A DNA stretch of 64,000 nt. Origin: an uncultured Oscillibacter sp. Lineage in GTDB: Bacteria; Bacillota; Clostridia; Oscillospirales; Oscillospiraceae. Shown here in pieces: positions 45,711 to 47,655 of the stretch (the stretch's first letter is position 1; each line of letters opens with the position of its first letter). The notes under the pieces were generated by a model. That model saw only the letters and a program-made list of their open reading frames with translations, was not told the origin of the DNA and ran no database searches. The stretch lies in NCBI RefSeq assembly GCF_947654275.1, contig NZ_CANTJS010000005.1, forward strand, positions 1 through 64,000. Reading direction: 5' to 3'. A program made the position numbers and the translations under genes.

Positions 45711-45847
45711 GAAAATATAAAATCCGCAGACAAACCAACCCGGTTCATCTGCGGTAAGACGTCCGCTATTTCCCTACGTTGGCATGATCCAAATCAGGTT
45801 CCGGGTCGGGACCTTCACGGTCCCCTCTCAGCCCGCGCCAGCGGACT
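45711..45847 (-). promoter_or_regulatory. TPP riboswitch and terminator upstream of thiE
   Basis: Minus-strand THI element: P1 GTCCGC/GCGGAC (ends near 45847 and 45761), GGGCTGAGAGGGGACC pyrimidine arm, and the pyrophosphate arm AACCTGATTTGGATCATGCC...CGTAGGGA. A hairpin CCGCAGA...TCTGCGG (45754-45724) followed by ATTTTATATTTT is the terminator. TPP binding should switch off thiE-thiD-cytX. Confidence 0.95.
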
Positions 45848-45868
45848 CCCCTTTTTGATTGTGAGCTT

Positions 45869-45931: not shown

Positions 45932-46074
45932 GGTCCCGAAAAGCAGGGGAGCCGGAAGGATGAGAGGAAGCGCAAGCTTCGACCCTTTACCTGATGCGGG
46001 TCATGCCGCCGTAGGGAGTCGATAGGGGACTTTTGACGGCGGTGCGCTCAGGTGCGCGCCGCCTTGCTTTTTGA
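45932..46074 (+). promoter_or_regulatory. TPP riboswitch and terminator, first element upstream of thiW
   Basis: Plus-strand THI element: GGGGAGCC, TGAGAGG, a small AAGC/GCTT stem, CGACCC, then ACCTGATGCGGGTCATGCCG...CGTAGGGA, with GTCCC (45934-45937 region) able to pair with GGGAC near 46030. The terminator GGCGGTGCGC/GCGCGCCGCC (46038-46063) with TTGCTTTTT follows. Confidence 0.94.
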
Positions 46075-46170
46075 AATTTCTTTGCGGAGGAGGGGGAAAC
46101 ACGACAGGCGTCCCGGCGGCAGCCCGCCGGGAACCGGCCGAGGGGGAGCGCCCTGGGTCCGGGCCCTATG

Positions 46171-46278
46171 CGCAGCGATGGGAAGCCGTGTTCCGGCGTG
46201 AGAGGAGGCCAGTCAGCCTCGACCGAATTTCCCTGGGCGGAAGGCCCCAGCCTGGTCAGGCATGGGGAAAACGCTGCG
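46171..46278 (+). promoter_or_regulatory. TPP-like variant aptamer with a remodelled 3' arm, upstream of thiW
   Basis: P1 is CGCAGCG (46171-46177) with CGCTGCG (46272-46278). The 5' half follows the THI element: GGGAAGCC, a GCCG/CGGC hairpin (P3), GTGAGAGG, a facultative AGGC/GCCT stem, then CGACC. The 3' half lacks ACCTGAT...CGTAGGG. Instead TTCCC (about 46229-46233) pairs with GGGGAA (46264-46269) around two small hairpins (TGGGC/GCCCCA and GCCTG/CAGGC). Downstream, CGTTTTC (46283-46289) can pair with GAAAACG at 46267-46273 or at 46303-46309, giving exclusive folds next to the thiW ribosome site AAAGGAG (46311). Ligand unknown. Confidence 0.6.
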
Positions 46279-46324
46279 GTTCGTTTTCTCCCTGCAATCT
46301 GTGAAAACGCAAAGGAGTTTCAGC

Positions 46325-46843
46325 ATGAAAAACAATTCCGTCAAAAAACTGGCCCTGGCCGGCGTGCTCTGCGCCGTGGCTGTCGCGGGCAGCATGTTTT
46401 CCTTCCCGGTGTTCGGCAGCAAGTGCGCCCCGGTTCAGCACATGGTCAACATCCTGTGCGCCGTGTTCCTGGGCCCCTGGTACAGCGTGGCCGCCGCCTT
46501 TGCCGCCAGCCTGCTGCGCAACCTCATGGGGCTGGGGAGTCTGCTGGCCTTCCCCGGCAGCATGTGCGGCGCGCTGCTCTGCGGCCTGGCCTTCCGGAAA
46601 ACCAGGAGCCTCCCGGCGGCGCTCGCCGCCGAGGTCCTGGGCACCGGCGTTGTGGGGGGACTGGCCGCCTACCCCGTGGCCGTCGCCTTTATGGGCAAAA
46701 GCGCCGGGGACATCGCCTTTACCGCCTATGTGGTCCCCTTCCTGATTTCCACGGCGGCGGGAGCCCTTCTGGCGGGGGCGCTGGTGTTCGCCCTTCAGAG
46801 AAGCGGGGCCCTGAAAGTCATGCAGGCCGCACTGGAGTCCTGA
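46325..46843 (+). CDS. thiW: ThiW, predicted thiazole-precursor ECF transporter S component
   Basis: A 172-residue integral membrane protein with five to six helices, the substrate-binding subunit of an energy-coupling-factor importer, predicted to bring in hydroxyethylthiazole. The family pattern is KCAPVQHMVNILCAVFLGPWY, SLLRNLMGLGSLLAFPGSMCGALL in overall form, and a conserved Gly-rich C-terminus. Start ATG 46325 has AAAGGAG 8 bases upstream; the frame-extended form would cover the leader structure. Followed by thiM 20 bases later. The shared ATPase/T components are not in this window. Confidence 0.93.
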   Translation: MKNNSVKKLALAGVLCAVAVAGSMFSFPVFGSKCAPVQHMVNILCAVFLGPWYSVAAAFAASLLRNLMGLGSLLAFPGSMCGALLCGLAFRKTRSLPAALAAEVLGTGVVGGLAAYPVAVAFMGKSAGDIAFTAYVVPFLISTAAGALLAGALVFALQRSGALKVMQAALES

Positions 46844-46863: not shown

Positions 46864-47655
46864 ATGACGCCTGACTTCTCTCTGCTGGAGGCGGTCCGCC
46901 GGACCCGCCCCCTGGTCCACTGCGTCAGCAATTTCGTCTCCGCCAACGACTGCGCCAATCTGGCTCTGGCGGTGGGGGCCAGTCCCATCATGGCCTGTGC
47001 GCCCCAGGAGATGGAGGCTGTCGCCGCCATATCCCGCGCCGCCGTGCTGAACACCGGCACGCCGGAGGAGGACAAATTCCGCGCCTGCCTCCTCCGGGGA
47101 CAGGCCGCCGGAAGGCTGGGCCAGCCGGTGGTTCTGGACCCCGTGGGGGTCGGGGCCAGCCCCTGGCGGCTGGCCTGGACGGAACGGCTGCTGGAACAGT
47201 TCACCCCCGCTCTGCTGCGGGTCAATTCAGGCGAGGCCAGGGCCCTTCTGCACCTGGACAGCCGGGCCCAAGGGGTGGACGCCGCCCCGGACCCTGACCG
47301 GCGGGGAACTCTGGCGCTGCGTCTGGCCCGGAAGCTGAACACGACCGTTCTCCTCTCCGGACCGGAGGATTTCGTCTCGGACGAAGCCGCTCTGTGGAGA
47401 ATCTCCGGCGGCAGTCCCCTGATGACCGGCGTAACCGGCACGGGCTGTATGCTCTCCGTCCTCTGCGGCGTCTTCGCGGCAGTGGAGCCGGACATCCTCA
47501 CCGCCGCCGTCACCGCCGCCGCCTTTTGGAAGGCCTGCGCCGCACAGGCGGAGGGCAGGGCCGGAGGACTGGGCAGCTTCCGGACCGCCCTTCTGGACGC
47601 CGCCGGGTCGCTGACAGCGGCGGACTGCGCCGGAATACCGGTTACACAGCTCTGA
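46864..47655 (+). CDS. thiM: Hydroxyethylthiazole kinase
   Basis: Cytosolic kinase phosphorylating salvaged hydroxyethylthiazole for ThiE. Motifs are PLVHCVSNFVSANDCANLALAVGASPIMA at the N-terminus in overall form, VVLDPVGVGAS, LRVNSGEARALL and MTGVTGTGCMLS. At 263 residues it is full length. CGGAGG precedes ATG 46864. With thiW it forms the thiazole half of the thiamine salvage pathway; the pyrimidine half is on the divergent operon. Confidence 0.95.
   Translation: MTPDFSLLEAVRRTRPLVHCVSNFVSANDCANLALAVGASPIMACAPQEMEAVAAISRAAVLNTGTPEEDKFRACLLRGQAAGRLGQPVVLDPVGVGASPWRLAWTERLLEQFTPALLRVNSGEARALLHLDSRAQGVDAAPDPDRRGTLALRLARKLNTTVLLSGPEDFVSDEAALWRISGGSPLMTGVTGTGCMLSVLCGVFAAVEPDILTAAVTAAAFWKACAAQAEGRAGGLGSFRTALLDAAGSLTAADCAGIPVTQL

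Follow-up and report, generated by a model that had tools for sequence, protein, structure and literature searches.

Recognition of thiamin pyrophosphate (TPP) by the TPP riboswitch has been assigned to individual nucleotides. In passages of PMC3764141, given in Escherichia coli numbering, the pocket for the hydroxymethylpyrimidine (HMP) ring consists of the J3-2 T-loop U39-A43, the G19-G42-A47 triple, and A41 on G18-C48, and U59, G60, C77, G78, and A80 are placed on the diphosphate side. The diphosphate is required for switching, according to part of PMC4112796. In addition, a section of the review PMC9481103 mentions unpublished findings that some RNAs classed as TPP riboswitches prefer thiamin or thiamin monophosphate (TMP). 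The present analysis concerns an RNA element in the leader of thiW in an uncultured Oscillibacter sp.; the stretch of DNA analyzed, referred to as the window, comprises positions 1 to 64,000 (64,000 nucleotides) of contig NZ_CANTJS010000005.1. The element is almost certainly a regulatory RNA that derives from the TPP riboswitch and lacks its pyrophosphate-sensing arm.

An element without the pyrophosphate arm

On the forward strand of the window, a long leader precedes thiW and thiM. A conserved structured RNA occupies 46136-46291 of this leader, between a TPP riboswitch (45935-46034) and thiW, and its parts are the following, as read from the letters:

46136..46159, + strand: hairpin Pc, with outer helix 46136-46139/46156-46159, a G.G mismatch, and inner helix AGGG/CCCT
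46145..46150, + strand: Pc loop, GGAGCG
46171..46278, + strand: P1, CGCAGCG (46171-46177) with CGCTGCG (46272-46278), closing the aptamer
46180..46224, + strand: pyrimidine-sensor half; GGGA, UGAGAG, and ACC each in 100 of the 100 copies of alignment A2 (described below), P3 and P3a covarying
46180-46181/46223-46224, + strand: P2, GG/CC
46182 and 46222, + strand: G46182 and A46222, corresponding to G19 and A47 of E. coli thiM in a numbering map made here
46185..46197, + strand: P3, GCCG/CGGC
46199..46204, + strand: TGAGAG, the UGAGAG pocket
46205..46220, + strand: facultative stem P3a, GAGGC/GCCTC
46221..46224, + strand: GACC
46225..46271, + strand: stretch replacing the pyrophosphate arm, a TTTCCC/GGGGAA stem enclosing small hairpins, present here and with modest support in relatives
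46228-46233 and 46264-46269, + strand: TTTCCC facing GGGGAA
46264..46291, + strand: alternative hairpin formed by GGGGAAAACG (46264-46273) and CGTTTTCTCC (46282-46291), which cannot coexist with P1
46267-46273 and 46303-46309, + strand: two copies of GAAAACG

The original prediction, made on this DNA, had described a 5′ half like the THI element and a 3′ half without the canonical arm. Every feature named there is found in the letters, and the canonical ACCTGAT..CGTAGGG arm is absent from the element. The prediction allowed that an Rfam TPP match might have been missed; with Rfam 15, no TPP match falls on the element at expectation values (E) up to 10, and the sole forward-strand match overlapping it is a 5-bit long non-coding RNA, by chance. 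The proposed core from 46171 onward stands, but the conserved unit begins earlier, the 5′ hairpin at 46136-46159 with its GAGC loop having been left out. Likewise, the proposed TTCCC/GGGGAA stem around hairpins is present in the window, but a stem of this type with at least 8 base pairs (bp) occurs in only 10 of 79 relatives, compared with 4.3% with swapped partners, which is modest support.

The prediction would also have fallen had related thiW leaders shown no conservation or covariation. Among named genomes, a motif scan over the 80 nearest thiW loci located the element in 72, of which 58 have a TPP riboswitch at most 700 nucleotides (nt) upstream of thiW. Alignment A2 contains 100 chosen copies (98 distinct) fitted to a covariance model. 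In this alignment 97.1% of cells are paired and 17 of 18 pairs are changed on both sides, with slid controls reaching at most 54.2% and none of 500 shuffles attaining the observed pairing. An earlier alignment of 68 copies had given 98.1% of cells paired over three helices; double changes affected 13 of 18 pairs, and slid controls reached at most 47.5%. The pocket letters GGG(A), UGAGA(G), and ACC are invariant (100 of 100 in A2). All nine Pc pairs are changed on both sides, its two helices being 94.7% and 96.0% paired, and its loop reads GAGC wherever the aligned copies have letters (94 of 94; the other 6 of 100 are blank at this place), preceded by G in 92 of the 94. GCGA stands immediately 5′ of P2 in 98 of 100 copies, the third letter varying in two; we know of no such feature in TPP riboswitches. 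P1 reaches at least 9 bp with its own partner in 46 of 135 copies, compared with 9.6% with swapped partners. Folding energy supplies no evidence, since the window stretch has a z of +1.16 and 177 of 200 shuffles fold as well or better. It is conservation and covariation, not folding energy, that argue against chance.

Distribution

Matches by blastn occur in 15 of 101 genomes sampled from the family. R1, a covariance model built from the new RNA alone, without TPP RNAs, matches 6 of 398 genomes sampled throughout the phylum, 31 of 391 genomes of the window's class (18 at 50 bits or more and 13 at 36.4 bits or less), and, in a second class, 49 of 250 genomes; this class, that of genome G479, is taken for Negativicutes judging from the proteins of G479. 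Ordinary TPP riboswitches are also present in 33 of 34 chosen carrier genomes. In 21 of the 34, a TPP match lies roughly 45-205 nt upstream of the element on the same strand; in 11, no TPP riboswitch is near the element; and in G880 and G947, one lies further upstream within the same cluster. Many second-class copies stand alone. A triple arrangement, with two successive TPP matches before the element, is seen at G004:C2:145623-145885 and G053:C37:8899-9166, the second TPP match of the latter scoring only 33.7 bits.

Individual copies vary in form. Before thiW, the copies L042, L081, and L082 end in a very short 3′ section that offers P1 no clear partner. In L171 (about 1034-1117), a second-class thiW copy, another hairpin replaces the usual Pc loop and the pocket is intact.

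Descent from the TPP riboswitch

Of the 13 weak R1 hits in the window's class, 12 gave a locus, and all 12 overlap a TPP riboswitch above the Rfam cut-off. The weak hits of a model built without TPP RNAs are thus TPP riboswitches at every locus checked, and the shared part is the pyrimidine-sensor half. When mapped by us onto the numbering in the passages of PMC3764141 cited above, the equivalents of G17-G19, U39-A43, and A47-C49 are identical in 100 of 100 A2 copies. Traces of the lost arm also persist. A CTGA relic stands where P4 of the TPP riboswitch begins in six second-class thiW copies (L121, L129, L132, L176, L178, and L226), which are relatives of one another, and a seventh match occurs in L164, a locus of transporter type, for a total of 7 of 135 cores against a background of 0.0004 per position. 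The Rfam TPP model aligns to L176 from end to end (30.0 bits, E 0.029), where the CG before the last P4 strand is changed to AU; the C77/G78 equivalents are lost despite the arm relic. The best score on the new element, 31.1 bits in L120, is still below the Rfam gathering cut-off of 54.3 bits. A low-threshold Rfam scan of L163 returned TPP at 16.3 bits (E 0.68) plus two unrelated chance matches. Given the relic copies and the alignments of the TPP model to L176 and L120, the pyrophosphate arm seems to have decayed stepwise. Relative to its TPP ancestor, the element kept P2, P3, the UGAGA pocket, and P3a, lost the pyrophosphate-sensor arm, and gained the 5′ hairpin Pc; closure of the pocket may now fall to Pc instead of the arm.

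Expression platforms and direction of switching

The strand overlapping the 3′ side of P1 (46264-46273) can pair with 46282-46291, which carries a CTCC able to pair with the ribosome site. In 56 thiW leaders, a set that excludes the window itself, the mean energy of the equivalent pairing is −16.6 kcal/mol for the true partner, against −14.5 kcal/mol for swapped partners and −11.9 kcal/mol for shuffled ones. The switch-like layout that had been proposed beside the thiW ribosome site is supported. Of the two GAAAACG copies said to compete, the first engages in a pairing that recurs in relatives, but the second was seen, by eye, in the leader of a single relative, L063.

Forcing P1 and P2 to form lowers access to the ribosome site by more than 0.1 in 19 of 51 leaders and raises it in 5 (Wilcoxon p 0.0004, over sequences that are not independent). 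This test superseded one in which P2 alone was forced (75 loci, six TPP-only leaders), where the effect was weak, access falling by more than 0.05 in 21 and rising in 9. The thiW start codon itself lies within P1 (TCATTACA/TGTAATGA) in one second-class clade, as checked in L106, L108, and L111. Loci of the transporter type possess a terminator, and in 6 of 11 (L163, L169, L172, L174, L179, and L181) a strand inside P1 pairs with the 5′ side of the terminator better than 97% of shuffles. Since these three kinds of platform (ribosome-site access, a start codon within P1, and antiterminator pairing) lean the same way, the modeled element is probably an OFF switch. The pocket, folding together with P1, would most likely turn the gene off, as P1 formation would remove a strand that otherwise keeps the ribosome site open or acts as antiterminator. 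Where it follows a TPP riboswitch, the new RNA would add a second input to the thiazole genes. For L163, an ON reading in which UCCCUC pairs with the aptamer's own GAGGGA is possible on paper; it was rejected because the same strand pairs with the 5′ side of the terminator and can be blocked by P1, so that this locus leans OFF.

Genes downstream of the element

The R1 searches yielded 63 loci, made up of 12 TPP riboswitches, one chance match (L105), 49 loci with thiW downstream (the window included), and one with thiM and thiE (L146). Among 20 further loci, translations show a ThiW-like protein downstream of the element in five and PhnD-like proteins in 11; Pfam was run on three of these loci, and PhnC and PhnE were confirmed for L163 only. 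The PhnD/PhnC/PhnE-like ATP-binding cassette (ABC) operon lies downstream of the RNA in L163 (1226-4000) and also in L164, L167, L168, L169, L172-L175, L179, and L180. The L163 binding protein weakly matches a model of a mycoplasma thiamine-pyrophosphate-binding lipoprotein (34.8 bits, cut-off 225), and the PhnD-like protein has no PDB match at 0.001. From its content, the PhnCDE-like operon is a candidate importer of thiamin compounds. In L165, a 530-residue protein (1188-2777, − strand) under the new RNA has AIRS/ThiL-like domains fused to ThiN and may combine TMP synthase and kinase in a single polypeptide. The leaders of L166 and L170 are nearly identical to those of L165 and L169, and L181 ends before any gene.

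The 34 chosen carrier genomes encode thiC in 27 cases and a full ThiG (more than 300 bits) in 10; 18 have thiC without a full ThiG, and 6 have neither. The gene order in G880 is TPP riboswitch, thiF, thiG, thiH, a TenI/ThiE-like gene, new RNA, thiW, and in G947 it is TPP riboswitch, thiC, new RNA, thiW. These two orders place the new input on the thiazole side.

The leader and the host genome

The remaining features of the leader and the genes that follow it are listed here:

45935..46034, + strand: aptamer that opens the tandem, a TPP riboswitch (Rfam RF00059 at 47.2 bits; E 3.3e-8 for the stretch searched)
46038..46072, + strand: probable terminator of the TPP riboswitch, GGCGGTGCGC..GCGCGCCGCC then TTGCTTTTT, by eye from the sequence
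46112..46131, + strand: hairpin Pb (CCCGGCGG/CCGCCGGG), upstream of Pc, by eye; possibly part of the element
46311..46317, + strand: AAAGGAG, ribosome-binding site of thiW, from the letters
46325..46843, + strand: thiW, S component of a thiazole-type energy-coupling factor (ECF) transporter (NCBIfam TIGR02359, 147.8 bits, cut-off 84.35)
46864..47655, + strand: thiM, hydroxyethylthiazole kinase (NCBIfam NF006830, 257 bits, cut-off 180)

The tandem position after a TPP riboswitch had been foreseen, and the upstream aptamer is complete and real, although its 47.2 bits lie under the gathering cut-off. Pb-like hairpins and a purine-rich AAAGGAGG-like stretch (window 46093-46131) recur in many Clostridia copies, and in some leaders additional pairing around Pb and Pc looks possible. 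On the reverse strand, another TPP riboswitch (45754-45862) lies upstream of thiE, thiD, and the HMP transporter gene cytX. ThiW of the window is 99% identical to that of the nearest named record, an Oscillospiraceae genome. The new element is present once in the window's genome (101.6 bits with the covariance model, the next match having 17.6 bits and E 1.7). The same genome has three TPP matches, the third preceding a ThiT-like gene (91.2 bits, cut-off 108.45). Since thiC was not found in this genome, and ThiG only as a 34-bit partial match, the organism seems to live by salvage of HMP, thiazole, and thiamin.

Candidate ligands

We infer that the RNA is a small-molecule sensor. Retention of the pocket favors a compound with an HMP ring, whereas TPP, if recognized as in the TPP riboswitch, is disfavored by the absence of the diphosphate arm. 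The OFF leaning points to an end product rather than HMP diphosphate (HMP-PP). Taken together, these make thiamin or TMP the first choice of ligand, a choice held at slightly under even confidence, for which the RNAs reported in a section of PMC9481103 provide a precedent. The original prediction had leaned to HMP or a thiazole compound; as modeled, the repression-leaning platforms fit thiamin or TMP better than HMP. The best explanation as a whole, an OFF riboswitch derived from the TPP riboswitch whose ligand has an HMP ring and which has no TPP-type reading of the diphosphate, is given an even chance of being right. More tentative is the broader proposal of a widespread thiamin/TMP riboswitch class that arose from the TPP riboswitch through arm loss and a 5′ hairpin module, forming a two-input tandem gate on the thiazole branch.

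Several observations count against an end-product OFF switch of TPP descent. In six of the eight loci where it was run, the Rfam TPP model leaves the new element unmatched at E up to 5, and L147 carries the element without an Rfam TPP match at E up to 1. For 27 of the 51 leaders, forcing P1 and P2 hardly changes ribosome-site access; CTCC and the ribosome site can form only about 4 bp; and 5 of 11 terminator-type loci (L164, L165, L167, L173, and L175) have no special antiterminator pairing. The genes are those of the thiazole side, and in G947 and G880 the element precedes only thiW, which an end-product sensor leaves unexplained. This placement matches that of the HMP-PP riboswitch, an ON switch, as described in part of PMC6478431.

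An ON switch for HMP-PP (or HMP or its monophosphate, HMP-P), with the thiazole genes opened once the pyrimidine half builds up, would stand beside the thiS motif as another architecture for the same task. In its favor, the HMP pocket is retained, the 18 carriers with thiC and no full ThiG make HMP and must import thiazole, and the gene associations resemble those of the HMP-PP riboswitch, which, in the same part of PMC6478431, also follows TPP riboswitches and was tested on a thiW leader. Reading by eye covered 330 nt upstream of thiW in 30 Clostridia loci, obtained from 30 of 42 genomes with a match; 7 leaders had the new element, 4 a thiS-like hairpin, 10 a TPP riboswitch only, and 9 none of these, and the new element and the hairpin never occurred together. 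The hairpin, AGGGGAGCACCACC(C/T)GAGGTGCTTCCCTTTT before thiW in L191, L192, L193, and L195, is one we take to be the thiS (HMP-PP) motif; its GGGGAGC is also found where TPP aptamers begin, and Pc has nearly the same letters. HMP-PP would be the first choice if the new RNA were an ON switch. However, the platforms lean OFF and the element is alone in many second-class copies, 11 of the 34 carriers having no TPP riboswitch nearby, making this reading unlikely, though it is a main rival because the presumed thiS hairpin occupies the same position in other thiW leaders. Another way to accommodate the pocket, the OFF leaning, and the invariant Pc loop letters is that the RNA still senses TPP, another phosphate site, perhaps Pc, having replaced the diphosphate arm. 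SAM-IV and SAM-I offer a parallel for a second architecture of one ligand class. Tandem TPP sensors are known as well (a section of PMC9481103). This is nonetheless quite improbable, as all but one of the carriers already have ordinary TPP riboswitches, only thiW receives the new RNA in G947 and G880 although a TPP riboswitch stands upstream in the same cluster, and the C77/G78 equivalents are gone even where the arm relic persists.

The thiazole-side genes and the OFF leaning would also follow if the RNA sensed hydroxyethylthiazole (HET) or its phosphate (HET-P) and repressed thiazole uptake, the old pocket being re-used for another ring. A change of ring does not predict pyrimidine-ring letters unchanged in 100 of 100 copies, and at two loci the ThiN fusion and thiE are also downstream; such a ligand is very unlikely. 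It is hardly credible that the RNA senses no metabolite and is instead a leader peptide, a protein-binding leader, or a decayed TPP riboswitch. The short frame ATGGGAAGCCGTGTTCCGGCGTGA, encoding MGSRVPA, is found in most Clostridia copies looked at, but second-class copies read GCGAGGG with no ATG, and L047 is without the T. A P3 pair change is compensated in L061, and in L098 one P3 pair is compensated and another broken. The leader peptide was rejected on the missing ATG and the compensated P3 change, and invariance of the pocket across two classes speaks against decay.

If the preferred reading of a thiamin or TMP sensor is true, the element would be a natural example of a change of riboswitch ligand through loss of one of two sensor arms, and some copies look like intermediates that have survived. 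It would supply a defined set of RNAs, genes, and letters for asking how riboswitch specificity evolves, and the PhnCDE-like operon is offered as a candidate transporter for vitamin B1 compounds.

Comparison with known systems

No Rfam 15 family lies above its cut-off on the new element in the loci searched. The open-access literature searched, including under the names "thiW motif" and "thiW RNA", holds no description of it, supplements and most subscription journals being outside that scope. Like the HMP-PP riboswitch (thiS motif) as presented in part of PMC6478431, the element follows TPP riboswitches and precedes thiazole-side and TMP synthase genes, thiW among them. The thiS motif, however, is described there as a small hairpin embedded in a terminator and acting as an ON switch, whereas the new element is larger and leans OFF; copies in thiW leaders carry no U run of their own, none follows the element in the window's leader, and the terminator-embedded architecture is lacking. 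The unpublished thiamin/TMP-preferring RNAs of the Breaker laboratory, as mentioned in a section of PMC9481103, are similar in being TPP-derived and in having an altered ligand proposed in tandem. In contrast to these, the new element falls below the TPP cut-off and is armless, though the comparison is one of descriptions and the two sets may overlap.

The TPP riboswitch (RF00059) itself shares with the element P2, P3, the UGAGA pocket, P3a, and GACC, as well as control of thi genes, tandem use, and the OFF leaning. The pyrimidine-sensor half that marks the family (P2, P3, UGAGA, and A47-C48-C49) is found in 100 of 100 copies. The element differs in having no P4-P5 arm, CGUAGGG, or diphosphate letters, and in possessing Pc and the invariant GCGA before P2. 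The window element has no arm with U59, G60, C77, and G78, and neither it nor the best relatives (31.1 and 30.0 bits) reach the 54.3 bits of the Rfam family. Because the arm and the Rfam score both fail, the element is kept apart from the TPP family, though it is derived from that family and probably works like it.
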